Under the pieces are notes generated by a model, which was not told the DNA's origin, made no database searches, and worked only from the letters and a program-made list of their open reading frames with translations. Position numbers and translations under genes: made by a program. Below are positions 12,302 through 31,179 of a DNA stretch of 32,764 nt, piece after piece; position 1 is the stretch's first letter; each line of letters begins with the position of its first letter. The DNA is from Paramagnetospirillum kuznetsovii (GTDB taxonomy: Bacteria > Pseudomonadota > Alphaproteobacteria > Rhodospirillales > Magnetospirillaceae), in assembly GCF_003284725.1 (NCBI RefSeq), contig NZ_PGTO01000028.1:1-32764 (forward strand), given 5' to 3'.

Positions 12302-12324
12302 CCCCGGGGAACGTGTCACCCGCC

Positions 12325-13218
12325 ATGAACCAGCCGGACCCGGCCCTTCTCGCCCGCCTTCCCCGTCCGTTTCGCGACGAGCCGTTCCGGTTGCTGCGCA
12401 AGGGCGTCCACGATAGCGATACGACCCTGGTGTACATCAATCGGAACGACGACTTCGCCTTCCTCGCCCCGCTGCCCGACATCGACTACCGCCAGTATCG
12501 GACCCGAAAAGAAGCGCTGGGCTTGGCCGCCTACCAGCCCGGCCTAGCCGCCGCCCAGGCCAGCCTCGAAAAGTTCCGCCCGGTGGTTGCCGCCGCTGGT
12601 AGCCTGCTGGAAGTGGGGGCCGGTGACGCGCCGTTCCTGACCGCAGTCCGCCAGACGTTTCCCACGCTCGCCCTGGCAAGTCTCGAGGTCGATCAGCTGA
12701 CCAAGCCGTTCCGCGATGCGGTGCCCGGTTTGCGCCAATACGAGGATTTCACCGAGATCAAGGCCGAAGGACGCCGCTTCGATTGCGTCGTGCTGCTCCA
12801 TGTGCTGGAACATATCCTGGAACCGGCGCTTTTCCTCGACCACATCAAGGCGGTTCTCGCCCCGGGCGGCGTGGTGGTGATCGAGGTTCCCTCTCTCGCC
12901 GACCCGCTGCTGAGTCTGCTTGCCCCGGGCGGGGTCGCCGCCTATCGTCGGTTTTTCTTCCAGTTGCAGCACCCCTACAGCTACAGCCCGTCCTCGCTGG
13001 TTCGCTTGCTGGAAAGTCACGGATTCGCCGCGCGCGAGGTCTTCGCCCACCAACGCTATGGGCTTGAAAACCATCTGACCTGGCTGGGCGAAAGTCGGCC
13101 GGGCGGCAATCCGCTGTTGCAGCAGGTCTTCGCAGGGTGCGATCAGGCCTATCGCGCCGATCTTGAACGGTCGGGCCACGCCGACACGGTGATCGTGGTG
13201 GCCGCAGCGGGCGGCTGA
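12325..13218 (+). CDS. Class I SAM-dependent methyltransferase
   Basis: The 297-residue protein has a class I methyltransferase core: motif I LLEVGAGDAPF, an acidic strand end SLEVD, and the post-motif HVLEHILEP characteristic of the Methyltransf_11/23 type, followed by PGGVVVIEVPS. The first ~80 residues are an added N-terminal region seen in sugar and lipid methyltransferases of glycan loci. It is divergent from the cytidylyltransferase operon and 68 nt upstream of the first radical-SAM gene on the same strand. ATG at 12325 is used; an in-frame GTG at 12313 is equally possible because neither has a well-spaced ribosome-binding site. The methyl acceptor is unknown; glycan O- or N-methylation is the context guess. 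Confidence 0.82.
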   Translation: MNQPDPALLARLPRPFRDEPFRLLRKGVHDSDTTLVYINRNDDFAFLAPLPDIDYRQYRTRKEALGLAAYQPGLAAAQASLEKFRPVVAAAGSLLEVGAGDAPFLTAVRQTFPTLALASLEVDQLTKPFRDAVPGLRQYEDFTEIKAEGRRFDCVVLLHVLEHILEPALFLDHIKAVLAPGGVVVIEVPSLADPLLSLLAPGGVAAYRRFFFQLQHPYSYSPSSLVRLLESHGFAAREVFAHQRYGLENHLTWLGESRPGGNPLLQQVFAGCDQAYRADLERSGHADTVIVVAAAGG

Positions 13219-13286
13219 TCCGGTCGCTTTACCCGTTTTTAATCCATCGGTGCCACGCTATCTCCCCCTTCCGCCTTCAACGGGTC

Positions 13287-15596
13287 ATGGGGCAAGACGA
13301 TATGGCTGGTTTCTTGGTTCGCGATATTCTGGACGAAGTCGATGTCTGCATGGCCTCGAGTAAAGAGGCTCTGGCGATCGACGTCCTTTATCGGGGTCTG
13401 TGGGACCATCCGGGTGACGAGGCCCTGTTGCGGCGCCTAGGCGGGTTATGCGTGCGGCTCGAGCGCTGGCAAGAGGCTCACAACGCCTTCGGCGAGCTGT
13501 CCCGGATGCGGCCCAATGACCCCGAAATCGCCGTCGCCCTGGCGACGGCCGCCGAAAAACCTGCCGAAATCGCCAGTTCACCGATCCGCATCGGACGGGG
13601 GAAGTATCTGCAATTCAGCGTCACGCGCTGCTTCGAGGATGCCGATCTGCCCCGCTCTGTCCTGTGGGAGGTTCTGGGCGACATGCTATGCGACGAGGAT
13701 GGCCTGGCCATTTACGGGCACGGCCCGTTCCTTGACGAATTGCTGGCGCACAATCCGATGCTGCTCGATGCCACGCTCGTCCAGATCGTCGATGACCCGG
13801 CCGAGGATGGTCCGCGTGGTTTGCCGGTGGTGACGCTGGACCAACTGCCGCCATCGGTTCGCACCGTCTTTCTGTGCGGCTTCGGCATGGCCGAACGGAT
13901 GGCGCGGTTTTATCGTTTGCCCACTGGATTGCGGATCGTCGATGCCGGGCTGCTGGCCTCGGGCCCACTGGCGGCGAAGCTGGCCTATGCCTGGAAGCCG
14001 ACCGAGCGCCACGCCTATCCCCTGGATATTCCCGACGTCGTGGTCCAACCCGACCTGGACGTATTGATCGTCGATTGCCCTGGCCGCGTCCTGGCCATGC
14101 TGCCCAACGGCATCGGCTATGTCGCGGCCGCGCTGGCTCGCACGGCTTTGCGGGTCCAGGTGCTCGACCTCGATCTGACCAGCTATCACCGCTACCATAT
14201 CCGCAGGCTGTTCGATCTGTGCGGGCCGATCATCCTGCCCGACGGCACCGAAATGCCGCGTGAGCCGTGGATGCCCGAATATGCCGAGTGGTGGGGAAAC
14301 GGCACGGCGACCACCGCCTTAGAGGACGACATTCAGCAAGCGATCGCGCGGATCATCGCGGCCCGTCCGAAAATTCTGGGGTTCTCGGTCAACAGCAGCA
14401 ACCGCGATATCGCCGGTCGCATCGCCGAGACCGTCCGCCAAGCGTGTCCCGACATCGTCATCCTGGCCGGAGGCTATTCCTGCCAGGACGAAACCCTGGG
14501 ACGGCTGAATTTCCCCGAGGCCGATTATGTCTGCATCGGCGAGGCCGACCTGACCGTCGGTCCGCTATGCGAGGCTTTGGCCACCGGCCAGCGGCCGATC
14601 GACCAACCGGGGGTTATGTCGCGCTTCGACACGCCTGGGCGGCGGTTCGTGCCCGGACCGCGCCAGAACAATCTGGATCTGATCGATTTTCCCCGTTACG
14701 ACTGGGTGCCGTCCCTGGATGTCTACCGCAATTACAACGGCTACCAGCTGACGCCGATCATCGCCAGCCGAGGCTGTCGCTGGTCGCGATGCACCTTCTG
14801 CGCCGAGCGGTTCTATTGGCGCATCCGATCGGCTGCCAATTTTTGCGACGAATTGGAATGGCTGTCCGATCACGGCTGCAAACTGTTCATGTTCAACGAA
14901 AGCGACCTGAACGGACAGCCCGACCGTCTGGTTGAAATCTGCGACGAAATCATCCGTCGGGGGATCAAGGTGGCGCTGACGGGCCAGTTGCGGATTCACG
15001 TCAAGGGCGACCGGCCGTTCTTCGACAAGTTGGCCCAGGCCGGATTCGTCGCCCTTCGCTTCGGGGTCGATGCCTTCAATGACAACACCCTCAGGCTGCA
15101 GGCCAAGGGCTACACCATGAAAATCGTCGAGCAGAATCTCCGCGCCTGCCACGAAGCAGGTATCTCCACCGCCGTCAACTGGGTGATCGGCGTGCCGGGC
15201 GAGACCGACGCGGATGTCGAGGAAAGCATCGCCAATGTGATCCGGCTCAAGGACCATATCGACAAGGTCGAGAATATCAACCAGCTGCGCATCAAGGTCG
15301 GCAGCATCTACTGGGTCTCGCCGGAGAAATACAACATCAGGTTCCGTCGGCCCCAGCAGGAATTGTTCGAACAATATCTGATCAACATTCCCAGCGAGGA
15401 ATGGTGGAGCGAGCAGCCCTATATCGACCAGCATGTCCGTCTGGAACGGTACGAACGGACCATCGTGGGATTGCGCGACGGCGACGTTCATTTTGGGGAT
15501 TTCGCCGCGTTGATGATCGAACGCGCCCTGCATGCCCACGAAGCGGAGGCAGACGAGCAGACCCCCGACCGCATGCTGATGCCGGCGCACCCTTGA
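13287..15596 (+). CDS. TPR / B12-binding / radical SAM protein (copy 1)
   Basis: The 769-residue protein has three parts. Residues ~20-95 contain TPR-like helices (LRRLGGLCVRLERWQEAHNAF). Residues ~245-430 form a cobalamin-binding-like Rossmann domain (LIVDCPGR, LGFSVNSSNRDIAGRIA, ILAGGYSCQ, YVCIGEADLT) without a DxHxxG base-off motif. The radical-SAM core (~480-720) has cluster cysteines C497, C502 and C505 in a CX4CX2C arrangement rather than CX3CX2C, and the NWVIGVPGET strand near 633. Such enzymes often methylate unactivated carbons or rearrange substrates, but no family function is recognised here. The start is uncertain: an in-frame ATG at 13302 aligns with the start of copy 2. Copy 2 follows after 99 nt. 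Confidence 0.85.
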   Translation: MGQDDMAGFLVRDILDEVDVCMASSKEALAIDVLYRGLWDHPGDEALLRRLGGLCVRLERWQEAHNAFGELSRMRPNDPEIAVALATAAEKPAEIASSPIRIGRGKYLQFSVTRCFEDADLPRSVLWEVLGDMLCDEDGLAIYGHGPFLDELLAHNPMLLDATLVQIVDDPAEDGPRGLPVVTLDQLPPSVRTVFLCGFGMAERMARFYRLPTGLRIVDAGLLASGPLAAKLAYAWKPTERHAYPLDIPDVVVQPDLDVLIVDCPGRVLAMLPNGIGYVAAALARTALRVQVLDLDLTSYHRYHIRRLFDLCGPIILPDGTEMPREPWMPEYAEWWGNGTATTALEDDIQQAIARIIAARPKILGFSVNSSNRDIAGRIAETVRQACPDIVILAGGYSCQDETLGRLNFPEADYVCIGEADLTVGPLCEALATGQRPIDQPGVMSRFDTPGRRFVPGPRQNNLDLIDFPRYDWVPSLDVYRNYNGYQLTPIIASRGCRWSRCTFCAERFYWRIRSAANFCDELEWLSDHGCKLFMFNESDLNGQPDRLVEICDEIIRRGIKVALTGQLRIHVKGDRPFFDKLAQAGFVALRFGVDAFNDNTLRLQAKGYTMKIVEQNLRACHEAGISTAVNWVIGVPGETDADVEESIANVIRLKDHIDKVENINQLRIKVGSIYWVSPEKYNIRFRRPQQELFEQYLINIPSEEWWSEQPYIDQHVRLERYERTIVGLRDGDVHFGDFAALMIERALHAHEAEADEQTPDRMLMPAHP

Positions 15597-15637
15597 ACGA
15601 TTGACCTTGGTGGAGGCCATCCCCACCTTCACTCTTT

Positions 15638-15664
15638 GGAAAGTCCTGCCGATCGATACTTTCC
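15638..15664. repeat. Short inverted repeat between the two radical-SAM genes
   Basis: GGAAAGT (15638-15644) and ACTTTCC (15658-15664) form a perfect 7-bp stem with a 13-nt loop, 32 nt before the second gene. It could be a leader hairpin or a protein-binding site. There is no T-run, so a terminator is unlikely. Confidence 0.35.
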
Positions 15665-15695
15665 GGCCGGATTCGTCGCAAAGGAAGAAGTCCCG

Positions 15696-17993
15696 ATGAA
15701 CAGCCAGGACGTCAGCCAAATTTTAGGAGAGGTCGAGGACTGTCTGCACAAGGGCAAGCCTGCCTTGGCCGTTGACGTGCTCTACCGGGGTTTGTGGCGC
15801 AGCCCGTCCGACGTGGAATTGCTGCGCCGCCTGGGGTTGTTGTGCGCCAGGCTCGAGCGCTGGGAAGAGGCTCGTACCGCTTTCGAGCGGGTCGAGGCGC
15901 TGTCTCCCGGCGCCCCCGATGTCCAGATCGCTCTGGGCGCGTTGGCAGGTAAACGTCGCGAAATCTCGTCGTCACCGATCAATTTCGGCACCGATAAGTA
16001 TCTGCAATTCAGCGTTCATCGCTGCTTCACCAACGGGGTGGTCCCCCTTTCGGTGCTGTGGGAGGTGCTGGGCGACCTGCTGGTCGAGGAAGACGGCTTG
16101 GCATTCTATGGCCACGGGCCGTTCCTTGACGATCTGCTGGCTCTTACCCCGGACCTGGCCCGGCTCGCCGTCGCCCTGATCGCCGACGATCCCACCGCCG
16201 CGCCCGACCTTGGATTGCCGGTGGTTACCCCCGCGACGCTTCCCGCAACGGTACGGACGGTGTTCCTGTGCGGAACCCGGATGTTCGACCGCATCCAGAT
16301 GCTGCGTCGATTACCGGCTGGGCTGCGGGTCATCGATGCCGGACTGCTGTCGTCCAGTAATCTGGCGCCCCAACTGGCCGATGCCTGGGCGCCGACCATG
16401 CCGCATGCCTATCCCTTGACGATTCCCGACATCGTCGTCCGTCCGGACCTGGACGTCCTGATTCTCGATTGCCCGGCGCGAACGCTGGCCCTGATGCCCA
16501 ACGGCGTCGGCTACGTCTCGAATGCCTTGAAGAAGACCGGACTTGGCTTCCAGGTTCTCGACCTCGATGTCTTCTCGTATCATCGCTACCACATGCACCG
16601 GCTCTTCGACGTCGTCGGCTCGCTGACGTTGCCCGATGGCACCGTCCTGCCCGTCGAACCGTGGCTGCCCGAGCATCATGAATTGTGGTCCAGCGGCAAG
16701 ATCACCCACCTGGTGGAAGACGAAGTCGTCGAAATCATCGAGCAGATCGTCGCCGCCCGCCCCAAGGTTCTGGGCTTTTCGGTCCATGCCTGCAACCGCC
16801 GGATCGCATCGCGGATCGCCCAGGCCGTGCGCGCGCAAGTGCCCGAGATAGCGATCATCGCCGGGGGCTATTCCTGCCAGAACGAAGCGATGGGAATGCG
16901 CGGCTTCCCCGATGCCGATTACATGTGCATCGGCGAGGCCGATCTGACGGTGGGGCCGTTGTGCCAGATGTTGGCGGCCGGCCAGCGACCCAAGGATCTG
17001 CCGGGGATCATGTCGCGATTCGATACGCCTGGCCGCCGGTTCGTTCCCGGCCCGCGAGAGAATGATCTCGACCGCCTGGACTTCCCCCGCTACGACTGGG
17101 TGCCGTCTTTGGACCTCTATCGCAACTACACTGGCTACCAACTGACTCCGATCATCGCCAGCCGTGGTTGCCGCTGGTCGCGCTGCTCGTTTTGCGCCGA
17201 ACGGTTCTATTGGCGGATCAGATCTGCGGCAAATTTCTGCGACGAGTTGCAGTGGCTGGCGGCGCAGGGCTGTAATCTTTACATGTTTAACGAAAGCGAC
17301 CTCAACGGCATGCCCGAGCGGTTACTGGAAATTTGCGACGAGGTAATCCGTCGCAACATCAAGGTGCTGTTCACCGGCCAATTGCGTATTCATGCCAAAA
17401 GCGACCAGGCCTTCTTCGACAAGCTGGCTGCGGCCGGCTTCACCGCACTGCGGTTCGGGGTCGACGCCTTCTCGGACCGCACCTTGAAGCTGCAGGCCAA
17501 GGGCTACACCATGAAAACGGTCGAAGACAATCTTCGTGCCTGTCACAAGGCCGGGATCGCGGTCAGCGTCAATTGGGTGATCGGAGTCCCCGGCGAGACC
17601 GACGCCGATATCGATGAAGGCGTGGCGTTTCTCGCCTCGGTCAGGGAATGCGTCGCCAAGGTCGATAACATCAACCAACTGGGCATCGTCAACGGCAGCA
17701 TCTACTGGCTGTCGCCGGAAAAGCACAATATCCACTATCGTCGGCCAAAAGAAGACTTGTACGAAGAGTTCCCCAACTCGATTCCGACCGAGCTGTGGTG
17801 GAGTGAAGAGCCCTATATCGACGACAAGATCCGGCTGGCCCGTTATGAACAGGCGGTGGTCGGCTTGGTGCGATCCGGCGTCCGGGTCGGCCCCTTCGCC
17901 GCCGGGGTGATCGACAGAACCTTGAAGTCGGACCCACGTCTGGCCGCAGCCGCCGACATGGAAGAACGTATCGCCATGCTGGCCCATCCCTAA
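15696..17993 (+). CDS. TPR / B12-binding / radical SAM protein (copy 2)
   Basis: The 765-residue paralogue of the preceding gene is colinear along its whole length and, by eye, well over half identical. Shared blocks include ALAVDVLYRGLW, KYLQFSV, YGHGPFLD, LDCPAR, FSVHACNR, AGGYSCQNE, TPIIASRGCRWSRC and FNESDLNG. The [4Fe-4S] cysteines are C492, C497 and C500, again CX4CX2C. Domain order is TPR-like helices, cobalamin-binding-like domain, radical-SAM core. ATG 15696 has an AAGGAAG box about 8 nt upstream; an in-frame upstream ATG at 15636 adds a low-complexity extension. The TIR-like gene begins 8 nt after the stop, indicating co-translation. Substrate and reaction are unknown. Confidence 0.87.
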   Translation: MNSQDVSQILGEVEDCLHKGKPALAVDVLYRGLWRSPSDVELLRRLGLLCARLERWEEARTAFERVEALSPGAPDVQIALGALAGKRREISSSPINFGTDKYLQFSVHRCFTNGVVPLSVLWEVLGDLLVEEDGLAFYGHGPFLDDLLALTPDLARLAVALIADDPTAAPDLGLPVVTPATLPATVRTVFLCGTRMFDRIQMLRRLPAGLRVIDAGLLSSSNLAPQLADAWAPTMPHAYPLTIPDIVVRPDLDVLILDCPARTLALMPNGVGYVSNALKKTGLGFQVLDLDVFSYHRYHMHRLFDVVGSLTLPDGTVLPVEPWLPEHHELWSSGKITHLVEDEVVEIIEQIVAARPKVLGFSVHACNRRIASRIAQAVRAQVPEIAIIAGGYSCQNEAMGMRGFPDADYMCIGEADLTVGPLCQMLAAGQRPKDLPGIMSRFDTPGRRFVPGPRENDLDRLDFPRYDWVPSLDLYRNYTGYQLTPIIASRGCRWSRCSFCAERFYWRIRSAANFCDELQWLAAQGCNLYMFNESDLNGMPERLLEICDEVIRRNIKVLFTGQLRIHAKSDQAFFDKLAAAGFTALRFGVDAFSDRTLKLQAKGYTMKTVEDNLRACHKAGIAVSVNWVIGVPGETDADIDEGVAFLASVRECVAKVDNINQLGIVNGSIYWLSPEKHNIHYRRPKEDLYEEFPNSIPTELWWSEEPYIDDKIRLARYEQAVVGLVRSGVRVGPFAAGVIDRTLKSDPRLAAAADMEERIAMLAHP

Positions 17994-19724: not shown

Positions 19725-21839
19725 CTACTTAGAGTCGAATCGAAGGACCGCTTCGGCGGAGGTGGCGGGCGGCCCGTCCCGAAGGCTTTGGCAATGGCCC
19801 AAGAACAGGGCGGCAGCGCCGTCATCGGACCATTGCCGTTGGAAGGCTTCGAACCCATTGACGGCCTCGGCCCATTCCCCGGCGCCATAGGCCGAGAATG
19901 CGGCATCCCAGGCCTGGGCGCGGGCCAGGATGAGACTATCGGTCGTGTCGCTGGTCGCCAAAAGCTCGAAGAGCGGGATGGGAATCGAGGTTCCCGACGC
20001 GACCACGGGGCCAAAGGGCCGAAACAGGAATTCCCCCCGCACCGCCTCTTCCACATCGCCGCTGACCAGCAACTCGGTGCCGAAGCGCTTGTTCAGCCCT
20101 TCGATGCGCGAGGCCAGATTCACCGCCGGTCCCAGCGCGGTGTATTGCATGCGCTTATGCGAACCCACATTGCCCACCACCACCATGCCGGTATGCAAGC
20201 CCATGCGGGTGGTCACCGGAGGCAAGCCTCGAGCGGCGAAAACGGCATTCAGTTCAAGGCCCACCGCGCTGCAGGCCAGCATGGCAAGGCAACCGTTTCT
20301 CTGGTGGTGAGGGTCCGGGCTGGGCGCGTTCCACAAGGCCATGATGGCGTCGCCGATATACTTGTCGATGGCTCCCTGATTGACGTCGATGGCGGCGGCC
20401 ATGACGTCGAAATAATCCGACAGCCGACTCAACACCTCCTCTGGGGCGAGCCCCTCGCTGGCCTTGGTGAAGCCGGCCAGATCGGTGAACATGATGGTGG
20501 TGGGTTGGCGCGCCCCGCCAAGAGTGGAATCGCTGCCCGACTGGACGATCTGGCGCACCACTTCCTTGGGCACGTAGACGCCGAAGCTTCGAAGCGCGCT
20601 CTTCATGCTGTCCAGGGCGTCGGACAGTTGCACCAATTCCGCCACCGGTGTCTTTACCCGCACCGGATCGTCCAATTCCAGCCTGCGGATCAATCGGGTC
20701 TCCTCGATGATCTGACCGATGGGCCGAGACAGAAACCGGGTGATGGCGAAGACGCCCACTCCGGACAACAGCACGATGGTCGATCCGATCACCAGGATCA
20801 GCAGGCTGATCCGGCGGATGGGGCCGATGAAGTCCTCGTCGTCGGTGGCGGCGAAAATCGTCCACTTGCTTTTCAGTTCGGGCGGAAGCGTGGTGGCCGA
20901 GACCACATAGGTCGCCCCGCCCACGCGCACGCGGAATCTGTCGCCACCGCCCTCGGCATGGCGCTTGATGATCGCCGACACCACCGGATCATCGAAGTCC
21001 TTGGCCATGACGATGGCGGGTTTTCCATTCTCGGTAATGACGTTCTTGCCGGTATCCGGATAGCCGACCAGCCGCCCCGCCTCGTCGACGATGAAGACCT
21101 GTCCGCGCTCGCCGACCTTCTGACGCGCCACCATCTGGGACAGCGCATCCAACGAGATGTCGGCGCCAAAGACGCCGATCACTTCCTTGTCGTCGGTGGC
21201 CATACGCTGGGACAAGGTCAGGCCCGGACGCCCGGTCCCCGAAAAAAGATAGCCGCCGGAATTGACCAGATCATCCTTGTCCTGGGCGGCCTTGTACCAG
21301 GGGCGTTGACGCGGATCGTATTGGATGGTGGCGCTTTGCTCGACCTTCACCACCGCTCCCCAATCGGATAGATAGATCAGGCTGTCGGCGGGCAGACCGG
21401 TAGAATCGTCTATTGTTCGAATGACATAGCGGGCGTTCTCTGGCGGCGCTTCGCCCTTCTGGCCGAACTTTCCCAGGCCGACGGGAAGGCGGATCATCTG
21501 CAGGAACTCGCCATTGCGGGCGAATCCGTAATAAAGGCTATAAAGTGCGGGCTGCTGTTCCAGCGCCTCGAAAATCGGACGCCAGGAATCTGGGCGCCGC
21601 AGGGAGTCTCGCTGGGCACGGCCAAAAGCCGCCGAAAGCTCCACGGTGCGGGCGATGGGCTCCAACAGACCGCGAACCCCGATCACCACCGATTCCGTTG
21701 ACTTGTCCATGGCCGAATTGGCGGTCTTCTCGGCCAGATCGGCGTTCCTGACATACAATATGCCGGTCATGGCCCCGATCAACGGCAGCATGATCCCCAT
21801 GAACATCGCGAAAATGCCGATTTGGAGACGAATGCGCAT
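19725..21839 (-). CDS. Membrane Cache-HAMP class III adenylate/guanylate cyclase
   Basis: The 704-residue protein has a TM segment (~7-29), a large periplasmic dCache-like sensor (~45-340, with YDPRQRPWYKAA and FGADISLDALS), a second TM (~345-367), HAMP (~368-420) and a class III cyclase domain (~445-625). Metal-binding aspartates are D453 (FTDLAGFT) and D497 (DKYIGDAIM). The adenine-selecting Lys is K493. The transition-state pair is N574 and R578 (AVNLASR). At the second purine-selecting position, where adenylate cyclases usually have Asp (GDAVN), this protein has Pro (P571). A C-terminal helical region (~640-700) follows. It probably makes cAMP in response to a periplasmic ligand and is co-transcribed with the DctP gene. 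Confidence 0.92.
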   Translation of the reverse strand: MRIRLQIGIFAMFMGIMLPLIGAMTGILYVRNADLAEKTANSAMDKSTESVVIGVRGLLEPIARTVELSAAFGRAQRDSLRRPDSWRPIFEALEQQPALYSLYYGFARNGEFLQMIRLPVGLGKFGQKGEAPPENARYVIRTIDDSTGLPADSLIYLSDWGAVVKVEQSATIQYDPRQRPWYKAAQDKDDLVNSGGYLFSGTGRPGLTLSQRMATDDKEVIGVFGADISLDALSQMVARQKVGERGQVFIVDEAGRLVGYPDTGKNVITENGKPAIVMAKDFDDPVVSAIIKRHAEGGGDRFRVRVGGATYVVSATTLPPELKSKWTIFAATDDEDFIGPIRRISLLILVIGSTIVLLSGVGVFAITRFLSRPIGQIIEETRLIRRLELDDPVRVKTPVAELVQLSDALDSMKSALRSFGVYVPKEVVRQIVQSGSDSTLGGARQPTTIMFTDLAGFTKASEGLAPEEVLSRLSDYFDVMAAAIDVNQGAIDKYIGDAIMALWNAPSPDPHHQRNGCLAMLACSAVGLELNAVFAARGLPPVTTRMGLHTGMVVVGNVGSHKRMQYTALGPAVNLASRIEGLNKRFGTELLVSGDVEEAVRGEFLFRPFGPVVASGTSIPIPLFELLATSDTTDSLILARAQAWDAAFSAYGAGEWAEAVNGFEAFQRQWSDDGAAALFLGHCQSLRDGPPATSAEAVLRFDSK

Positions 21840-22020: not shown

Positions 22021-22329
22021 CTATTTGCGATCCTGCACGGCAGAGCCGTCGGCTTCGAGCCGCAAGCGCAGCAACGCGGATTCCAATTCCGAGGCGATAC
22101 TGCGACGCGCCTCGGTCCCTTTGGCCTCCCGGAGACGTCGCAGCGCGCTGTCGGCCTCTGTCAGTTCGGCGATGGCCGTCGGACCCTGGCGGGTTGATAA
22201 CTGTAGCTTCACTGCCTCCAACTCGGACGCCTTGGCCGCCTCGTAGCCCTTGTCGATGACGGGAGAACCTTGCGCCATGGCTGCGGAACTCAGCGCGACG
22301 ACAAGAGCTGCCATAAGAAATGATCGCAT
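22021..22329 (-). CDS. Small secreted protein of the secretion-like operon
   Basis: The 102-residue precursor has a signal peptide (MRSFLMAALVVALSSAAMAQG) and a mature part of about 80 residues. That part is predicted to be mostly alpha-helical and charged (AAKASELEAVKLQLSTRQG, ALRRLREAK). No family is recognised. Three consecutive ATG codons occur at 22335, 22332 and 22329; the AGGAG box is best spaced for the last. It starts about 33 nt after the M50-HlyD stop and is the final gene of the operon. It may be a periplasmic chaperone or accessory protein of the export machinery; this is inference. Confidence 0.7.
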   Translation of the reverse strand: MRSFLMAALVVALSSAAMAQGSPVIDKGYEAAKASELEAVKLQLSTRQGPTAIAELTEADSALRRLREAKGTEARRSIASELESALLRLRLEADGSAVQDRK

Positions 22330-22362
22330 CATCATGCTCCTATTATAGCCTTGCATATTCTA

Positions 22363-24450
22363 TCACATTCCGCTTTCGCGCATCAGAACGGCAATGGCGG
22401 AACGCAAGGCCGCGCCGGCAAGGCTTTCAGCCTCTCCGGCCAAAATGGCGACACCTCGAATCTGAGAGGTCGGCGCGGGGCCTTCCGCATGGCAACGAAC
22501 GCGATAGAGCGCTTGGTCCGGAACCAGGGCCCGATCCTTCACCCGCACGGACACCGTCCCACCGGCAAGGGTGGCCAGCGCCGGGTCGGCGAGATTGCGG
22601 ACCGACCCTCGATCTATGGCGACGATCCGGCATGGAAGGTCTGGGCGCCCAAGGTCATCGGCGACGAAGCGGCCCTGTCCGTTCAATGTCAGCCGTGTCA
22701 CGTCGCTTTCGGCCACATAGGCATCAATCACCGGCGGAGCATCGCTCTCGATTGCGGCCAAGCGCTCCTTGGGACTGATCCACTGGCCCGGCTGGAGATC
22801 GGGAATGGGGTCGACGATACGCCCGGAAAAGGGCGCGATCAGGATCTGGCGCTCTTTTTCGCGTTCCATGGACACCCGCTCGGCCACGGCTGTCTCCAAT
22901 TCCTGGCGTAGCGCCTGGGAGCGCTCGCGGAACGTATTTTCGAAGGCGAAGAATGCCAGCTCGAATTCCAGCACCTGAATTTTGCGCGCCGCCTGCGCCA
23001 GACGATGATCAAGATCGGGAGAGGTCAGGACCGCCAGCACCGCGCCCGCCTCAACCTTGCGTCCGAAAGCGAGATCAACGCGCTCCAGGCGCCCCGCCGT
23101 CATGGGATAGAGTCCGAAATGGAGGTCGGCCTTCAGCATGGCGGGAGCGGAAATGCGCCCATGCCAGGGAATGAAGGCCCCCAAGGCCAGGACGACCAGC
23201 AATCCCAGCGGAGCCAATGACCGCCGGGATCGCATGATGGTCGCTCGCCGTGTCCACCATTGTTTGAACTCGCCCCAGAACGGCATGAACACGAACCACC
23301 CGATTTCAACGGCGAACAGCAAGATGCCGACCGCCTTGATGAAGAAGTGATAAACCAATGCGGCGATGCCGAGAAACAGCACCAATCGATAGATCCACAC
23401 ACCAAACGCGAAAAGTACCAGCGCTTGGCGCTGGGCGGGATGGAATCGCTCAGGCTCCGGCTCTCCCAGCTTGAACAGCACCTCCCGCAGCCACCATCGC
23501 GCCACGGCGAAGGCGCGCTGGTGCAGATTGGGCATGTCCAGAGCATCCATCAGCAGAAAATAGCCGTCGAACCGCATGAAGGGGCTGAGATTAAGCACCA
23601 GGGAGGACAACCACGTCGTCGAGGCCAACATGAATGCCGCCCCCCGCAAAGCTCCATCGGGCAGGAATCCCCATGCCAGGGTGGCCCATGCCGCGACCGC
23701 CAGCTCCACCAGGACTCCCGCCGCCGCCACGGAGAGGCGGTCCCGGCGGCGCGTCAGCTTCCAGGTCTCGTTGACATCGGTATAGAGCACCGGCCACATC
23801 ACCAGCAGCGCAAGTCCCATGGTGGGAACCCGACAGCCCAAGCGCTTGGCGGCATAGCCGTGCCCAAGCTCGTGCAAGAGCTTCACCCCGGCGAGGGTGA
23901 CGCCATACATGACAAGCCCGGACGGACTGATTGTATCGACCAGGGTGGCGCCAAAGACCTCCCATTGCCGGATAATCAGGAATAGCCCCACGACCAAGGC
24001 GCCGAGAGTCGCCATGAGAAACCCGCGGGAGAATGCCCAGCGCACAGCGGGCAAAGTCAGTCCCAGTAACCGATCAGGCCGAACCAAGGGAATGCGGATG
24101 AACAGGTAATGGTGCAGCAGCCACTGGGCCCAGGTCTGCTTGCCCGCCACCGCCTTTTGATGCAACCGCGCGGTTCCATCCGGGCCGACCGATTTCAGCA
24201 GCTCGTTACCGGCCAAGAATCCCACCACATCCATGACATCGCTCTCGACCAGATCAAGGGCGGTCTCGGAAGAGACCGCCTGAGCGATGACAGAGGGTTC
24301 CCCCAGATGCCAGCGCGCCAATATCTCGAAGATCGGCCAGCCAATTCGAAAGAAGCGGTTTCGCACCGGGTCTTGCAGTGTCCAACTTGGCGCGCCGCCC
24401 TGGACCGGGCCGGGATGAAGATGAAGTTCATCGCGCAAGGGCGGCAGCAT
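22363..24450 (-). CDS. Site-2 protease (peptidase M50)-HlyD fusion protein
   Basis: The 695-residue multi-pass protein has an N-terminal cytosolic region (~20-120; WTLQDPVRNRFFRIG resembles a PqqD-like wing). A membrane metalloprotease core follows, with zinc motif HELGH (193-197) and a third-ligand candidate D295 in FMRFDGYFLL. More TM segments extend to about 425. The C-terminal periplasmic HlyD-like adaptor (~430-660) has a lipoyl-like strand pair (GRLERVDLAFGRKVEAGAVL), a coiled coil (~485-535) and a second half (APFSGRIVDPIPDLQPGQWI). It matches the putative peptide zinc metalloprotease group (YydH-like). It could cleave a membrane-inserted substrate and hand it to the channel. It starts 3 nt after the GAF-HlyD stop. 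Confidence 0.87.
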   Translation of the reverse strand: MLPPLRDELHLHPGPVQGGAPSWTLQDPVRNRFFRIGWPIFEILARWHLGEPSVIAQAVSSETALDLVESDVMDVVGFLAGNELLKSVGPDGTARLHQKAVAGKQTWAQWLLHHYLFIRIPLVRPDRLLGLTLPAVRWAFSRGFLMATLGALVVGLFLIIRQWEVFGATLVDTISPSGLVMYGVTLAGVKLLHELGHGYAAKRLGCRVPTMGLALLVMWPVLYTDVNETWKLTRRRDRLSVAAAGVLVELAVAAWATLAWGFLPDGALRGAAFMLASTTWLSSLVLNLSPFMRFDGYFLLMDALDMPNLHQRAFAVARWWLREVLFKLGEPEPERFHPAQRQALVLFAFGVWIYRLVLFLGIAALVYHFFIKAVGILLFAVEIGWFVFMPFWGEFKQWWTRRATIMRSRRSLAPLGLLVVLALGAFIPWHGRISAPAMLKADLHFGLYPMTAGRLERVDLAFGRKVEAGAVLAVLTSPDLDHRLAQAARKIQVLEFELAFFAFENTFRERSQALRQELETAVAERVSMEREKERQILIAPFSGRIVDPIPDLQPGQWISPKERLAAIESDAPPVIDAYVAESDVTRLTLNGQGRFVADDLGRPDLPCRIVAIDRGSVRNLADPALATLAGGTVSVRVKDRALVPDQALYRVRCHAEGPAPTSQIRGVAILAGEAESLAGAALRSAIAVLMRESGM

Positions 24451-24453
24451 GTC

Positions 24454-25767
24454 CTAAAACCCGACCATATGACGCACGGCCGCCAGCGGTCGGCGCACCA
24501 GCCAATAGAGGATGGGGACACGCCCGGCTTCGATACGGGCCGTCCCTTTAAGGCCGAGTCGGGGCTTAGTCCCCTCTTCCATCAGGGTCGCGCGCAAGCG
24601 GTAGGCCACCGTCGAATCGGAGCGGCTTTGCGCCTCGTAGCCGACAAAGCGCAGACTGGCGCGCACGGGATGCAGCGGGTCGGCGTTCAGAAATACCGTC
24701 ACTTTCATGCCGGGATCGAGATCCACCGCGTCCCCGACCGCCAGCCAGGCTTCGATCTCGGTATCGCGCTCGTCGGCGATGGACATTACCCGTTCGCCGA
24801 TACTGACGGGACGACCGATCCATTCGGAGGGATCGTCCAATACGGCAAGGCCGCTGCGTGGCGCCTTGACCTTGATCCGCTCCAACAGACCGCGCAGATA
24901 GGCCGCCTCGGCGGCACGCTCTTCCATCCGCCCGGAGAGGACCATCAGCTTGGACTTGGCGGCCGGATCGAATACCGCCTGTTGCGAGGTCAGCCGATAT
25001 TCTGCCTCGGCGGTCGACAGGGTCTTTTCCGCCACTTCAAGCTTGCCGATCAGGGTCGTGGCGTCGAGATCGAAGAGCAGTTGGCCCTCCCTGACCTGGG
25101 CATTGGGGGCGATATGGAATTTATCGATGACGCCATCCAACGGGGACCGCACCACCGCTGGGTGGGCTGCCACCAGTTCGGCCGGAGCCAGCACGGTTAA
25201 CGGCACAGGCAACAAGGATGCCAGCGCGACACCACCCACCACCGCTCCCCAGGCCAGTCGGCTGAGCTTCCGGCGGGGCGTCGCTCCCCTGCTCTTCTGG
25301 AAAAAGGACAGGGCATGTCCATAGGCATGGCCGATTTCGTTCAGCAGGGCCTGGTCTTGGTCGCTCCATGGGCCGTCGCGAACCAAGAGCACCCCCCCAA
25401 GCGCCCGATCCCCCCACCCATTGAGAGGAAGCCAAAAACCATGGGGCGGAAACCACTCGCTCCATTCGGCGCGGTCGCGCTCGGACAACAGGCCGGGATC
25501 GATCCGCCCACCCTGGGGCAGCGCGGCGGCAAGGCCTCGACAGGCGCGCGCCAGCCACAAAACGAAAGGGGTCGACCCCTCCGGCGCGGAGAGGCCCGAG
25601 ATGGTGACGACACCCATGCCCTCCCGCCACAGGATCGCCTGACGATACGGAGCCAGCGCGTGGGTCTCGTTGACGATGATAAAGCCCAATTCCTCGGCGG
25701 TCTCCGCCTCGCGGATGCGATGCTGAAGGCTCAGAAGAACGGAAATCGGATCGGTCGCCTCGGTCAT
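24454..25767 (-). CDS. GAF-like domain / membrane HlyD-family adaptor
   Basis: The 437-residue protein has an N-terminal cytosolic GAF-like sensor (~10-160; PYRQAILWREG, LPLNGWGDRALGGVLLVRDG) and one TM segment (~172-190). A periplasmic HlyD-type membrane-fusion domain follows: lipoyl-like half AVVRSPLDGVIDKFHIAPNAQVREGQLL, coiled coil ~235-290, and KVKAPRSGLAVLDDPSEWIGRPVSIGERV. HlyD adaptors bridge an inner-membrane machine to a TolC channel. The cytosolic GAF-like part is unusual and may gate export by a small ligand or partner. ATGA overlap with the preceding hlyD-like gene and a 3-nt gap to the M50 gene make this a coupled operon. Confidence 0.85.
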   Translation of the reverse strand: MTEATDPISVLLSLQHRIREAETAEELGFIIVNETHALAPYRQAILWREGMGVVTISGLSAPEGSTPFVLWLARACRGLAAALPQGGRIDPGLLSERDRAEWSEWFPPHGFWLPLNGWGDRALGGVLLVRDGPWSDQDQALLNEIGHAYGHALSFFQKSRGATPRRKLSRLAWGAVVGGVALASLLPVPLTVLAPAELVAAHPAVVRSPLDGVIDKFHIAPNAQVREGQLLFDLDATTLIGKLEVAEKTLSTAEAEYRLTSQQAVFDPAAKSKLMVLSGRMEERAAEAAYLRGLLERIKVKAPRSGLAVLDDPSEWIGRPVSIGERVMSIADERDTEIEAWLAVGDAVDLDPGMKVTVFLNADPLHPVRASLRFVGYEAQSRSDSTVAYRLRATLMEEGTKPRLGLKGTARIEAGRVPILYWLVRRPLAAVRHMVGF

Positions 25768-26507
25768 GGTGGGGTCAATAACACTCGACCACTCATTCCC
25801 GCCAGCAGTTCTGGAAACGTGCCGGTCACCTCCGCCACCACCTTGACCGATTGGCTGAGGGGATCAACCTTGGCCCCCAACCGCGCCACCTTGGCCGGGT
25901 AGGAACGCCCGGTCTCATCGATGGCGATTTGAAAGCCAAGACCGGGCTTTAGCCATGACAGCCAACGCGACGGCGCCAAGAATTCCACTTCAAGCACCGA
26001 GTCGTCCAGAATTTCCAGCATGACCTGACCGGCCTGGACGAACTGATGATCATGGACCTTGATCTCGACCACCCGCCCGGGGAATGGCGCCGCCACGTTG
26101 CACTTAGAGACCACCGCCGCCCCGGCATTGATCTTGGCGCGGTTCTTGGCGACCTCGGCGGCAGCCACCTCGGCTTCCAGGGCGCCACCGGCATTCATCT
26201 CATGCAGGCGGCGATTGACCGAATAGGTCTTCTCCGCCGCCACCATGGTGGCCCGTGCCTCTTCCAACTGCGCCCGCTGAACATGGCAATCCAACGAGAC
26301 CAGGGCTTGGCCATCCTTGAACCGCTCGCCATCCTTGACGGTGATCCTGTCGACCTTGGCGGCCAACTCGCTGGACAATGTGGTGAAACGGCGTGGCGAC
26401 AGTTGAGCGCGAATATCCTGTCCCGCTCCGCCTCGGCCCATATCCTGGGCCGAGGCGCTTGAAGCGGCCAGCACGGCAAGCACGACCGCGAAGGCGTAAC
26501 GGCGCAT
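25764..26507 (-). CDS. Soluble periplasmic HlyD/RND-type adaptor protein
   Basis: The 247-residue precursor has a Sec signal peptide (FAVVLAVLAASSASA) and a compact membrane-fusion layout. A lipoyl-like half (AKVDRITVKDGERFKDGQALVSLD) and a short coiled coil (~75-125) come first. The second lipoyl half (NVAAPFPGRVVEIKVHDHQFVQAGQVM) and a beta-barrel region ending GMSGRVLLTPP complete it. It lacks TM segments, unlike the two other adaptors of the operon. The start ATG overlaps the last base of the TolC-like stop (TGATG). It probably docks on the TolC-like lipoprotein and completes the periplasmic conduit. The longer open frame to 26684 lies inside the TolC-like gene. Confidence 0.87.
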   Translation of the reverse strand: MRRYAFAVVLAVLAASSASAQDMGRGGAGQDIRAQLSPRRFTTLSSELAAKVDRITVKDGERFKDGQALVSLDCHVQRAQLEEARATMVAAEKTYSVNRRLHEMNAGGALEAEVAAAEVAKNRAKINAGAAVVSKCNVAAPFPGRVVEIKVHDHQFVQAGQVMLEILDDSVLEVEFLAPSRWLSWLKPGLGFQIAIDETGRSYPAKVARLGAKVDPLSQSVKVVAEVTGTFPELLAGMSGRVLLTPP

Positions 26508-28525
26508 CAATTGGCGGAGGAGGCGATGGCGATGGGGCCATCTTCCGAGGCCGCCGGTAAATCGTAACGCAGAACGTCCTTGTCCTTGGCGGGGGCAGCG
26601 GCAGGAGACTGTGTCTGACGGCCCTGGGACGCCTTTACCAGAATCTCCGACACCTTGCCTTCGTCCAGTCCGGGACGAACCCACGTGGCGGCGACATTGG
26701 CCGACCGTTCCGCATCATCGGCAGGCTGCGACACTTCGCGCAGCCGAGCCGACTGATCGGGGACGTCATTCCAATTCCGATCACTCTTGACCGCCTGTTG
26801 TTCCACGGCGGTCAAATCGACGGATGTCACCGCGGCCTTCCGGCGGACGACGGCCACCTTCTTGGTTTTGGCCTTGACGACCGGACCATCCTGGGTCGCG
26901 GCGACGGGCTGGACGGTGACACTCTGATCAGGGGTGGATTCCACCACGGGTGCCTGAACGGGCATTTCAGCCACGGGGACCGGAGCCAACGCCTCGGGGG
27001 CCGCGTCCACCACGGGAATCGGCGCCGTCGGCAACCGCCCCCATGTCTCCAACCGGGCGTTGATCGTATTGCTCAGATCATCGATATCGTGGCTGGCCAC
27101 CTGATCGGGAAGCAGATCCTGACCCAGAGTCGCCTGCATCTTGCCGAAGGCCGACTGCATCTGGGCATAGCTTTGATAGCGGCGCAGGCGGGCGGCGATA
27201 GCCGAGGTCTGGTTGGCGATACGCTCCATGACGCTCTGAGCGTCGTTCTCGGAACGAACCCTGGCGAACTGGGCCAGACGCTGCTCCACCTGATACAACT
27301 CGTCGGCGCGCTGGAATTGCTTGCCCGCGTTCTGGAACTGCCGATAGGAAACATGGACCTGGGCCAGGATCGCCATGCGCAGTGCGACGCGCTTGGCATT
27401 GGCGACCTTTTCGTTGGCCTCGGCGCTGTCCATCTGGTCGGGCGCCGACAAAAGGTTAAACAGGTTCCAGGTGATCTTGGAGCCAACCTCATACCACTGG
27501 TGATCCACCAGGAAGCTGTTGCTGTCCCACTTGTTGTTGATGTTCAGATTGATGCCGGGCAGCATCTTCAGGATGGTTTTCTTCGTCTCGTCCAAGGTGA
27601 TGCGGGCCAGATACATCTGTTCGCGCAGGTCGGGATTATTGACGAAGGCCAGTTCTTCCATCTGCTCTGGCGACATCTCCATGGGCGGTATGGTCATGGC
27701 CGAATCAGCGGGAATATCAAGATTCATTTCGCTTCCCGGCGGCAGATTGACCAGCGCCGCCAGTTCGTAGCGCGCCGTCGACAATTCATGGCTGATCGCT
27801 TCCAGCTGACGCAGATTTTCCAGCAGGTTCTTCTGATAGCGCAGGATTTCGGCCTGGGACCGCAGCCCCTCCCTCTCGACCGCGCGGGCGTCGGTCAGTG
27901 CCTTCTCGGCCACTTGGACCGTATTGGAAACCTCGGCGTGGAGAACCTGGGCGGCGGCCGTCCGCCAATAGGCGAAACGCACTTCCTGAATCAGGTTATG
28001 GACGGTCTTGCGGCGGCGCTCGGTGGCGATCAGCGCCTTGTCGGCGCTCTGCTGGGCATTGACGTAGCTCACGCCGAAATCAAGGATGTTCCAGGTCAGC
28101 CCCAGGTCGGCGGTAATATTGTCGCGATCGGTGGAATAGGTGGGATTGCTGGTGGAGGTGACATTGGTGACAGCATCGCGCGACCGGGTGGCATTGGCCT
28201 CGGACCGACCCGTATAGCCCGCATTGGCGACCATCTTGGGCAACAGATCCCAGCGATCGACATTCTTCTGACCGGCGGCCAGGGCCTCTTCCATCACCTT
28301 GGTGCGGCGATCCAGGTTCTGGGTCAGGGCACGGGCAATGGCATCAGACAGGCTCAGAGGCTTGGTCACCGGCGCATCGGCGCTGAACATTTCGGCCTTA
28401 TCCGCGACGGTCTGGGCCTTCATTTCGGCCTCGGTCAGCGGGTTTGGCGACACCGCGCAGGCGGATAGCAGCGCGACAACCGAGGCGGAGGCAAGAAGGT
28501 GACGGAGTAAGCGATAGCTGCGCAT
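26507..28525 (-). CDS. TolC-like outer-membrane efflux lipoprotein with long C-terminal tail
   Basis: The 672-residue precursor has a lipoprotein signal with lipobox LLSAC (Cys23). It has the two repeats of an outer-membrane efflux protein (~45-490): DAIARALTQNLD, LGLTWNILDFGVSYVNAQQSADKAL and a second-half ITWNLFNLLSAPDQMDSAEAN. The last ~180 residues (~491-672) are Pro/Val/Ala-rich, low complexity and absent from ordinary TolC. They are probably periplasmic and may bind partners or peptidoglycan. ATG 28525 is chosen for the signal peptide and an AGGGGA box; the frame stays open to 28849 inside the DUF4347 gene. It supplies the outer-membrane channel of the operon. Confidence 0.9.
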   Translation of the reverse strand: MRSYRLLRHLLASASVVALLSACAVSPNPLTEAEMKAQTVADKAEMFSADAPVTKPLSLSDAIARALTQNLDRRTKVMEEALAAGQKNVDRWDLLPKMVANAGYTGRSEANATRSRDAVTNVTSTSNPTYSTDRDNITADLGLTWNILDFGVSYVNAQQSADKALIATERRRKTVHNLIQEVRFAYWRTAAAQVLHAEVSNTVQVAEKALTDARAVEREGLRSQAEILRYQKNLLENLRQLEAISHELSTARYELAALVNLPPGSEMNLDIPADSAMTIPPMEMSPEQMEELAFVNNPDLREQMYLARITLDETKKTILKMLPGINLNINNKWDSNSFLVDHQWYEVGSKITWNLFNLLSAPDQMDSAEANEKVANAKRVALRMAILAQVHVSYRQFQNAGKQFQRADELYQVEQRLAQFARVRSENDAQSVMERIANQTSAIAARLRRYQSYAQMQSAFGKMQATLGQDLLPDQVASHDIDDLSNTINARLETWGRLPTAPIPVVDAAPEALAPVPVAEMPVQAPVVESTPDQSVTVQPVAATQDGPVVKAKTKKVAVVRRKAAVTSVDLTAVEQQAVKSDRNWNDVPDQSARLREVSQPADDAERSANVAATWVRPGLDEGKVSEILVKASQGRQTQSPAAAPAKDKDVLRYDLPAASEDGPIAIASSAN

Positions 28526-28563
28526 AGGACAATCCCCTGGAGTAAATTCATTCTCGTGTTTGA

Positions 28564-31179
28564 TTAGGCGACGCGGCCCGAAGCTGATCTCATGGCGGCT
28601 AAACGTGCCGTACCGGATTTGGCTGCGCGAATCTGCTCGGCGAGGCCCGCCTTGCCGACAAAGGCGTGACGGGACGGACCGACGAGGCCGTCGGCATTGG
28701 CCCCTTGACCACGCACCTCCATCTTGAACACCTGAACAGCTTCGGCGCCCGCGGCATCCTTGGCCGAGACCCTGATGTCGATGGCCCCCGTCTGACCGGG
28801 AGGCGGCGTGCCTTCGAAGCGTCCCGTGGTGGGATTGAACGACAACCAACCGGGAAGCGGCTGTCCATCGGCCATGGTCGCCTGAAGCGTCACCTGGGCA
28901 TCGGCCTTGGCCACCGCGAAGGCATCGGCGGGAATACCGAACGAGACCCGCCCCGTCTGAACAACTTCGCCGATGGGCCTGGCGACCACGATGGCGTCGC
29001 CGCCGGTCGCGGCGCCTGGGGCGGCCACCGCCACCCGAAAACCGCCATCGGACGGCGCCGACAGGTTCGGCGACAGCGCGATATTGGACTCGGCTCCGCG
29101 TGTTGACGCGGGCGCCGCGATGCCGTCACTGGTGCGGTTCGACAAGGCCGACAGGCCGTCCGAGGACGAAACCTGCGTGGTCGTGGACTCGCGCACCACG
29201 GTCTGCATGCCCGCCGCCTTCGCATCGCTGCTGGTGCCGTCACCACGCAGGGCGTTAATGATCGGGGTGCCGCCCTCGGCGGCGCCGGTCTTGATGATCT
29301 TGGGCGTGGAAATCTCGGTCGCGGCAGGCGGTTTCGGAGCATCTTTCGGCGGTTCCGCCGCCGGCGGCGGTGGTGACTGGTGGAGTTCCGTGGTGGCGCT
29401 CGTCGGCGCCGTCAATTTGATGTTCGATGTCGCGGTGCCCGAATTACCGTCGGTGGCCTTGGCACTGATCTGCAGGATGCGCGTGGTGGTATCGGGCGAC
29501 GACAGCGTGTTCTTAAAGGTAATCTGGCTGGTCAGGGTGGTCATGACGGCATCGGTGACACTGCTGCCATAGCTTCTGAAATTATCCAGATACAGGGATG
29601 CGCCAGCCGCGCCGCCGCCGGAAAAGTCGAAGGTACCCGCGGCGAAGATAAGCCGGTAGTTATCGCTGGTGGGAACGGTGACACTGCCGGGAGCGAAACT
29701 GGTCGAGGCGCTCCCGGAGGAGCCGGTCTGATCCAGAATCAGAGTCGTCGTCCCATCCGTCACATTCAGGAGATAGGCGTAGACGTCGAAGGCATCGCTG
29801 CCTCCCAAGGCGCGCCAGTCGAACGAAACGCCGTCTCCGGCATTTGCGGCGAATTCCGGGCTGATGGCCAACGGACCGTGGATGATATCATACCCGTGTG
29901 CCATCGAGACGCCGGTGCTCAGCAATTGGAGGCCGTAGCTACCGGCCGTCTTTTGCGTGGTCACCACCGTGCCGCTCAGGGTGCCAAGCGAGGACGGCGT
30001 CACCGAATCGTTGTTGGTATTGTTGGCGGGCGTGGTGGTATCGGCGGGGGTGACATAGGGGCCGCCGGAACCGATGGCGCTGGCAAGGTCGGTCGTGCCC
30101 AGTTTCACCTGGGTCGTGACGATGGTCCAGCCGGTGGTGTCTCCGGTTTCGAAACCGGCATTGGTGAAGGGAGAAACACCCAAATTGATCTGCAGCGCCT
30201 TTCCATTGGTGCCGTCATTGGTCGAATCCACATAGCCGATCAGATCCCGACCTGTGCCGTTGCCCAGATAGACGCCGGTGCTGCTGCCGACGACGCCGGT
30301 GGAAATGGCGCCGGTGTCGTTGACATTGGCGCCGTCGGACAGCGCCAGGACGTCGCCGGTCTTGACATTGCTCAGGGTGAAGCTGATCGAGCCGCCGCCG
30401 TAATGAGTCCCGTTGGCGAAGGAGATCGCCGGATCCACCGCCACGGCGGTTCCCCCGCTCGCATAGGTGGCGTCGGCGGTGCCCGTTACCGTCGGCGTTC
30501 CCAGCAGGCCATCGAACCTGGATATCTCGATCGAGGTTGTCGCCACGGCGCCGACGCTCCGCTCCAGCACCCAATCGCCCCCCTGTGCCGCCAAACCGGT
30601 GGCGTCGATCGAGGCCGCCACGTCGGCGCCCGTGGCAGCGGCCAGATCGCGGATAAAGTTATCGCCATCGCTTCCCTTGGCGATATCGCAGCCATACAAC
30701 AATATGTCGCCACCGGATTTGAGCGCATGGCCGATCTCGGCCAGTTCCGCTTGAATCTCCGGATTGCCGAGCGCGCCGTCCGCAACGGAAGTGGCGCCGA
30801 TATTCACCAGCCCCTCGGCACCATGCGACAACAGGTGAATGGCATCATAGCCCGAATGGGTCTGCGCCCATTTTGCCATCTGCGCCAGCCCATTGCTGCC
30901 GCCGTCGATCAGTTGGACCTCGACCCCCGCCCTCACCCCGTCGATCAAGACCTGATAGCCCGCCACCGAAGTATCGACGAAGGCCACCTCCTTCTTGCCG
31001 CCGTCTTGGGACGGATCGGCCGCGCGGACCTGAACCGCAGGCGGAACATCGGGAATGAGCGCCTTGGCGCTGGCATCGGCGGCGGCGTGGGCCGCGTCAA
31101 CAGCGGCCGCGCCGTCAAACATCCAGCGAGGCTCCAGCGCCATCATCATCAAAGCAGATCGTTCGACATTCCGACGCAT
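28564..31179 (-). CDS. LEPR-motif DUF4347 surface/secreted protein
   Basis: The 871-residue protein begins with the LEPRWMFDGA motif (15-24) found at the N-terminus of large adhesin-like export substrates instead of a Sec signal. A DUF4347 domain (~63-215) follows, with VAFVDTSVAGYQ, HLLSHG (H119) and ILLYGCD (C164). The middle (~230-600) is Gly/Ser/Thr-rich beta structure with few charged residues. A putative Ig-like (He_PIG-type) domain lies at about 755-835 (LPGWLSFNPTTGRFEGTPP). No RTX GGxGxD repeats are seen. It is the first gene of the operon, 38 nt before the TolC-like gene, and is the probable cargo. An AAGGGG box precedes the ATG. Confidence 0.85.
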   Translation of the reverse strand: MRRNVERSALMMMALEPRWMFDGAAAVDAAHAAADASAKALIPDVPPAVQVRAADPSQDGGKKEVAFVDTSVAGYQVLIDGVRAGVEVQLIDGGSNGLAQMAKWAQTHSGYDAIHLLSHGAEGLVNIGATSVADGALGNPEIQAELAEIGHALKSGGDILLYGCDIAKGSDGDNFIRDLAAATGADVAASIDATGLAAQGGDWVLERSVGAVATTSIEISRFDGLLGTPTVTGTADATYASGGTAVAVDPAISFANGTHYGGGSISFTLSNVKTGDVLALSDGANVNDTGAISTGVVGSSTGVYLGNGTGRDLIGYVDSTNDGTNGKALQINLGVSPFTNAGFETGDTTGWTIVTTQVKLGTTDLASAIGSGGPYVTPADTTTPANNTNNDSVTPSSLGTLSGTVVTTQKTAGSYGLQLLSTGVSMAHGYDIIHGPLAISPEFAANAGDGVSFDWRALGGSDAFDVYAYLLNVTDGTTTLILDQTGSSGSASTSFAPGSVTVPTSDNYRLIFAAGTFDFSGGGAAGASLYLDNFRSYGSSVTDAVMTTLTSQITFKNTLSSPDTTTRILQISAKATDGNSGTATSNIKLTAPTSATTELHQSPPPPAAEPPKDAPKPPAATEISTPKIIKTGAAEGGTPIINALRGDGTSSDAKAAGMQTVVRESTTTQVSSSDGLSALSNRTSDGIAAPASTRGAESNIALSPNLSAPSDGGFRVAVAAPGAATGGDAIVVARPIGEVVQTGRVSFGIPADAFAVAKADAQVTLQATMADGQPLPGWLSFNPTTGRFEGTPPPGQTGAIDIRVSAKDAAGAEAVQVFKMEVRGQGANADGLVGPSRHAFVGKAGLAEQIRAAKSGTARLAAMRSASGRVA

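Follow-up and report, generated by a model that had tools for sequence, protein, structure and literature searches.

In this work, we suggest that a six-gene operon of Paramagnetospirillum kuznetsovii encodes a dedicated system by which giant surface proteins would be exported across the envelope without an ATP-binding cassette (ABC) transporter, combining a leader-reading domain similar to the recognition elements (RREs) of ribosomally synthesized and post-translationally modified peptides (RiPPs), a TolC/HlyD conduit and a site-2 protease, a reading toward which we lean slightly. The operon lies on the minus strand of the window, which is the whole stretch of DNA analysed (32,764 nucleotides, the entire contig C20 of a genome of 4.4 Mb), at positions 22021-31179, and is transcribed in the order DUF4347 cargo, TolC, adaptor, GAF-HlyD, M50-HlyD and small protein. 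A tightly packed operon of this kind had been proposed from the sequence, and all six genes were found where the original prediction had put them, the junctions ranging from -4 to +38 nt: a 38-nt gap follows the DUF4347 gene, the TolC and adaptor genes overlap by 1 nt and the adaptor and GAF-HlyD genes by 4 nt, and gaps of 3 nt and 6 nt precede the M50-HlyD and small-protein genes, respectively. The genes and their features are as follows.

28564-31179, minus strand: putative cargo, 871 aa, with the N-terminal motif LEPRWMFDGA, DUF4347 (clan-CD-like), a further body, He_PIG and a C-terminal GKAGLAEQI (Pfam)
31105-31137, minus strand: LEPR leader motif, cargo residues 15-25 (sequence motif)
30475-31179, minus strand: modelled cargo segment, 235 aa, leader plus DUF4347, caspase/CHAT/legumain-like fold (predicted structure)
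30823-30825 and 30688-30690, minus strand: codons of cargo His119 and Cys164, respectively (alignment)
26507-28525, minus strand: TolC-family outer-membrane channel with a lipoprotein-type signal, LSAC (OEP, 1.7e-33)
25764-26507, minus strand: HlyD-type periplasmic adaptor with a signal-like N-terminal segment (HlyD_3)
24454-25767, minus strand: GAF-transmembrane-HlyD adaptor, transmembrane-like segment at about residues 168-198 (HlyD_3; GAF via orthologues)
22363-24450, minus strand: fusion of RRE-like domain, site-2 protease and HlyD, 695 aa (Peptidase_M50, HlyD_3, predicted fold)
24115-24450, minus strand: modelled N-terminal segment of the M50 protein, 112 aa, of which residues 1-87 match the RRE fold (predicted structure)
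23860-23874, minus strand: HELGH of the M50 protein (alignment of orthologues)
23563-23592, minus strand: NLSPFMRFDG of the M50 protein (alignment of orthologues)
22021-22356, minus strand: small protein, 111 aa, with a signal-like N-terminus (open reading frame, ORF)

Most of the domain labels given in the original prediction stood. Pfam found DUF4347 (7.2e-48) and He_PIG in the cargo, OEP in the channel and HlyD_3 in three proteins, namely the adaptor, GAF-HlyD and M50-HlyD. The Peptidase_M50 match of M50-HlyD (3.4e-6, 27.0 bits) was slightly below the cut-off of 27.2. The GAF label holds through orthologues, of which 7 of 26 matched PF01590 at E-values up to 1 (best 6.1e-6), and not through the window's own GAF-HlyD protein, which gave no Pfam score for GAF up to an E-value of 0.1. 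"LEPR" is a plain sequence motif (residues 15-18), the NCBIfam LEPR model having no match to the window cargo. The further claim, that this is an export-type operon without a linked ATPase or pump in which a site-2 protease fused to an adaptor takes the inner-membrane seat, agrees with our results: none of the six genes encodes an ABC, resistance-nodulation-division (RND) or major facilitator superfamily (MFS) transporter by Pfam, and Peptidase_M50 and HlyD_3 are both found on the 695-aa protein. TolC export has been described with an energized inner-membrane transporter of the ABC, RND or MFS type (PMC8277102).

The cassette is widespread. When 149 genomes were searched for M50-HlyD, a full-length or near-full-length orthologue was found in 44, which were hand-listed as cassette genomes at 35% identity or more; not counted among the 44 are genomes with fragments only, such as G008, G010 and G015, and the divergent copies of genomes G106 and G072. 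A scan of named species genomes showed at least 335 stretches encoding M50-HlyD relatives, and the best 80 of these 335, which were the ones used, span Alpha-, Beta- and Gammaproteobacteria, Nitrospira and delta-type lineages by record title. Gene maps were made for 41 sequences (the window and 40 stretches) and for the 80 loci, the lineages of the 121 loci being assigned by record title or kinship, and the recurrent order, with variants, was giant gene, TolC, HlyD, GAF-HlyD and M50-HlyD. With genes labelled by profiles built on the window's own proteins, and with several stretches coming from one genome, a GAF-HlyD-like gene was located immediately upstream of M50-HlyD in 116 of 122 copies (121 loci). 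For the 98 copies having at least 6 kb of upstream sequence, at least two other HlyD ORFs were present in 83, a giant/DUF4347 ORF in 79 and a TolC ORF in 77. Because the GAF-HlyD-like gene is upstream in nearly every copy and the giant, TolC and adaptor genes recur alongside, the association of these genes far exceeds chance. The small protein, which had zero Pfam matches, has homologues in 14 of the 41 sequences (15 ORFs) and among the 80 loci as 2 ORFs, and is thus mostly restricted to relatives of the window in the sequences compared. The window genome (G000) has a second M50-HlyD copy on contig C28. A cassette fragment filed under a metagenome-assembled genome (MAG) of Akkermansia muciniphila (L094) has 46% identity to the window protein, as proteobacterial copies do, and is perhaps MAG contamination.

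The presumed cargo follows the cassette from genome to genome. DUF4347 (PF14252) was found in 45 of the 149 genomes, that is, in 41 of the 44 cassette genomes versus 4 of the 105 others (p 2e-28, kinship ignored); of these four, G008 and G015 carry M50-HlyD fragments, and G019 and G140 had no M50-HlyD among the matches listed. When 64 giant-like ORFs, picked by composition and having an intact N-terminus, were inspected, LE[PQSA]R..[FY]D[GA] was present within the first 260 residues in 51, several of which come from one genome, so that they are not 51 independent events; repeats are also included (L181 and L188 represent the same gene, L182 corresponds to the gene of the window, and L210 and L211 duplicate two of the misses, L060 and L059). 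Among the 13 misses, three (L196, L198 and L203) carry an LEPR-like start that fails the strict pattern, seven (L045, L059, L060, L073 twice, L210 and L211) are probable shadow or antisense frames by strand and composition, L050 represents the latter portion of an interrupted frame, L100 starts in masked bases, and L123 is ambiguous. The hydropathy of the leader region was below 1.8 in 39 of 41 cargos, and N-termini reached 1.8 or more in 48 of 53 TolC proteins and 57 of 65 adaptors; by this measure, the leader region does not qualify as a Sec signal. At the other end of these proteins, the motif G[KR]x[SG][LF]xxQL was found in 72 of 94 giant proteins versus 10 of 387 background ORFs, the pattern having been drawn from the same proteins, and lies 8-41 residues from the C-terminus (window and giants of L031-L150). 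It is a possible second signal for export or anchoring.

Next to the leader, DUF4347 is predicted to adopt a caspase-clan (caspase/CHAT/legumain-like) fold of the clan CD cysteine peptidase type, with a putative His/Cys dyad: His119 was conserved in 31 and Cys164 in 34 of 35 sequences, both being present in 31. Designed TIM barrels appeared repeatedly as weak matches to the DUF4347 profile and were disregarded. The leader-plus-DUF4347 profile matched the window genome seven times: in the window, in giant ORFs on contigs C4, C28 and C42, in a short ORF on C30, and twice at contig ends, where the leader alone was matched. Because contigs C4, C28 and C42 (L188, L031 and L189) end within the LEPR-coding start, it is probable that a single cassette is preceded by a tandem array of several giant genes, which the assembly collapsed as repeats. 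The short gene on C30 (L190, 9340-9855, in the region 9340-16686) encodes a 171-aa DUF4347 protein with an LEPR-like start (ALRPCMMFDGA), is located beside a type I ABC over the LssB cut-off, and is possibly a remnant or a captured cargo. In Burkholderia thailandensis, the DUF4347 protein BTH_II1339 has been reported as one of the proteins with the strongest increase in stationary phase (PMC12322963).

The M50-HlyD protein has the motifs that would be required of a protease. His193, Glu194 and His197 of HELGH were invariant in 36 of 36 aligned orthologues, as were N287, P290 and D295 of NLSPFMRFDG, so that the HExxH and the distal N..P....DG zinc motifs of Peptidase M50/site-2 proteases are both present throughout; Asp295 is presumably the third zinc ligand, as expected from the site-2 protease pattern. 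The protein is a putative site-2 protease fused to an HlyD arm. The original prediction had considered a route driven by proteolysis, which would be speculative: the invariance of the active-site residues indicates only that the protease matters. Its core is related to the daptide HExxH equivalog NF041824 (6.3e-50; score of 170.4 bits, against a curated cut-off of 300) and to NF058609 (1.5e-10), in both cases below the NCBIfam cut-off. The N-terminal domain is predicted to have the bbb-aaa winged fold of the PqqD-like RREs, and a comparison with PqqD by hhalign gave 69% (E 4.3e-5). Pfam PqqD had no match in the 36 M50-HlyD members, and no RRE was matched when the RRE profile was searched against PDB sequences. 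Leader binding by this modelled domain is putative.

The absence of a conserved ABC gene from homologous loci, on which the original prediction depended, was borne out. ABC-like ORFs (query: one type I ABC) were found in 19 of the 121 loci at no conserved position, and a SecA homologue (query: the secondary SecA of G106) in one, L070, which is the G106 locus itself; no conserved linked ABC or SecA gene was found across the 121 loci. RND-length ORFs were only sporadic in the gene maps, such as in L061, no RND profile search having been made. A dedicated secondary SecA was ruled out for the window's operon and genome; in the genome, SecA_DEAD matched once, and the frame concerned is of canonical size (928 aa). 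Among the matches listed, ten genomes had at least two SecA_DEAD matches, and cassette genomes account for two of the ten (G050 and G144): the second match of G050 is a contig-end piece with a stop, and that of G144 falls outside the matches listed. G058 and G060 have two partial pieces each. Six named cassette genomes were compared. In Candidatus Nitrospira defluvii, an additional SecA (697-aa frame) is located with its own divergent GAF-HlyD/M50-HlyD pair, and the other five genomes have only the canonical SecA, two of them with an extra weak partial match.

There are, therefore, two related types of cassette, a SecA-plus type with a divergent M50 protein (26% identity for G106 and G072) and the SecA-less type of the window, the former being a related branch on the basis of identity and gene content. 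A leader-like motif was found near one of two SecA-plus loci examined. In G106, the giant frame begins ...MEKFEKLEQRIMLSGD and has the motif KLEQRIMLSGD; it runs for 4845 aa to the end of L198 and is in frame, by coordinates, with the 2202 aa that open L070, which would give about 7000 aa. For the N. defluvii locus, no leader-bearing giant was found within about 79 kb.

Taken together, these results could be explained by a mechanism in which the RRE-like domain of M50-HlyD, cytoplasmic in the topology we infer, would bind the LE[PQ]R-x-M-F-D-G leader of the cargo, and the site-2-protease membrane domain, its fused HlyD arm and GAF-HlyD would form an inner-membrane receptor or gate. The path of the cargo would lead through the M50 membrane domain or alongside it, and into a conduit completed by the soluble adaptor and the TolC lipoprotein. 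The site-2 protease would probably trim or release the leader and the adjacent caspase-clan DUF4347 would probably cut during or after export, giving one or two proteolytic maturation steps overall. Housekeeping SecA, the proton-motive force or a borrowed ABC could supply the power, and housekeeping SecA appears the likeliest, given that one divergent relative of this locus encodes a SecA-type ATPase of its own. A bolder form of this proposal, which we put forward tentatively and would not yet call probable, is that these loci make up a separate class of one-step secretion: the RRE, site-2 protease and adaptor would replace the ABC transporter, the LE[PQ]R leader would pick the giants, passage through TolC would be driven by SecA or the proton-motive force, and the SecA-plus loci would be a related branch with a private motor.

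Alternatively, the TolC channel and the adaptors might pair with an ABC transporter encoded elsewhere, as in type I secretion, with the M50 protein acting as an accessory maturation factor. The original prediction had allowed for such a borrowed ABC, and partners are in principle at hand: all 149 genomes had some LssB-family match at 1e-60, and on contig C30 of the window genome, an LssB-type type I ABC scores above the family cut-off (895 bits) and is flanked by an HlyD-like ORF (profile match) and an ORF that is TolC-like by eye (no TolC-profile match) and located next to the short DUF4347 gene. Furthermore, full-length type-I-like ABCs under the cut-off were found in three of five cassette genomes examined in detail (G057, G102 and G089), with a weaker one in G148, and the C-terminal motif of the giants resembles the C-terminal signals of type I secretion. 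However, among the matches listed, with 7-8 candidates scored per genome, type I ABC families over three cut-offs were not associated with the cassette (22 of 44 cassette genomes versus 53 of 105 others, p=1.0), no ABC is conserved across the 121 loci, and in G077 (88% complete), which has the cassette, no match extended into the N-terminal portion of the ABC family model. We therefore regard a borrowed pump as unlikely.

We give a similarly low probability to a two-step route, in which SecYEG/SecA would carry the cargo across the inner membrane, an atypical signal being supplied by the LE[PQ]R region, and the operon would serve only the outer-membrane step and signal removal. Site-2 proteases process membrane-spanning remnants. 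The single canonical-size SecA_DEAD protein of the window genome and the secondary SecA of related loci (PMC4452313; G106 locus) are in line with such a route, but a signal-peptide core is absent from 39 of 41 leader regions and an RRE would be needless. Finally, signalling proteins often carry GAF and site-2 protease domains, and the operon could be a module for sensing membrane stress or for regulated proteolysis, its large neighbour being exported by other means. This is very improbable given that the TolC and HlyD genes stay with the giant gene across phyla and that DUF4347 co-occurs with the cassette genome-wide.

Elsewhere in the window, a Cache-HAMP adenylate/guanylate cyclase is encoded at 19725-21839 on the same strand, 181 nt downstream of the small-protein gene. 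Also outside the operon, positions 13287-17993 encode a tandem pair of B12-binding radical SAM proteins, of 769 and 785 aa by ORF; TPR repeats are present in the latter. A repeat search gave nothing of note.

The kind of locus that combines SecA with M50, GAF and HlyD proteins has already been published (PMC4452313). In the open-licence PMC literature, preprints being outside its scope, no description was found of the SecA-less variant, of the link to LE[PQ]R/DUF4347 cargo or of the RRE domain. New in this work are the pairing of the cassette with LE[PQ]R-x-M-F-D-G giants, the predicted RRE fold of the M50 N-terminus, the predicted caspase-clan fold of DUF4347 and the similar leader at one SecA-plus locus. 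The original prediction had included neither the published SecA-associated relatives nor the RRE-like domain nor the predicted protease fold of DUF4347. The M50-HlyD cassette is common to the 121 loci, where TolC and HlyD genes usually accompany it and no neighbouring ABC is conserved. If confirmed, the proposed system would link RiPP leader recognition with the secretion of giant proteins and account for the LEPR/DUF4347 proteins, and the question of the motor would become testable.

When compared with known systems, the operon is similar to type I secretion systems (HlyB-HlyD-TolC, and LapBCE, the giant-adhesin class) in its TolC-family channel (OEP, 1.7e-33), its HlyD adaptors (three proteins) and a large repetitive cargo, and differs from them in having no dedicated ABC exporter and in having a conserved N-terminal leader and the M50 and RRE-like domains. 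The loci reported by Kamneva, Poudel and Ward in 2015 likewise unite M50-HlyD, GAF-HlyD, HlyD and sometimes OEP genes without an ABC and were described as type I-like; a secondary SecA was proposed as the ATPase and M50 as a possible inner-membrane pore (PMC4452313). In contrast to the window, which has an LEPR/DUF4347 gene and no SecA, those loci carry the secondary SecA; no cargo is named in the portion of that paper available, and DUF4347, LEPR and PqqD are not mentioned in its main text. Tce1 (PA0256; 9qpe), a DUF4347 protein of the Pseudomonas aeruginosa type VI secretion system, shares the domain family, the fold and the putative His/Cys dyad, but is a free effector of that system and not the N-terminal domain of a giant (PMC13323088, PMC8262886). 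RiPP systems with membrane M50 proteases (EpeP/YydH and daptide HExxH) have a related M50 core and the logic of RRE and leader that is proposed here, whereas the window has an HlyD fusion and its cargo is a large protein (871 aa, and about 7000 aa in G106) instead of a peptide. EpeP, an M50 enzyme thought to both cut and export (PMC10885120), is a precedent for the proposed mechanism.
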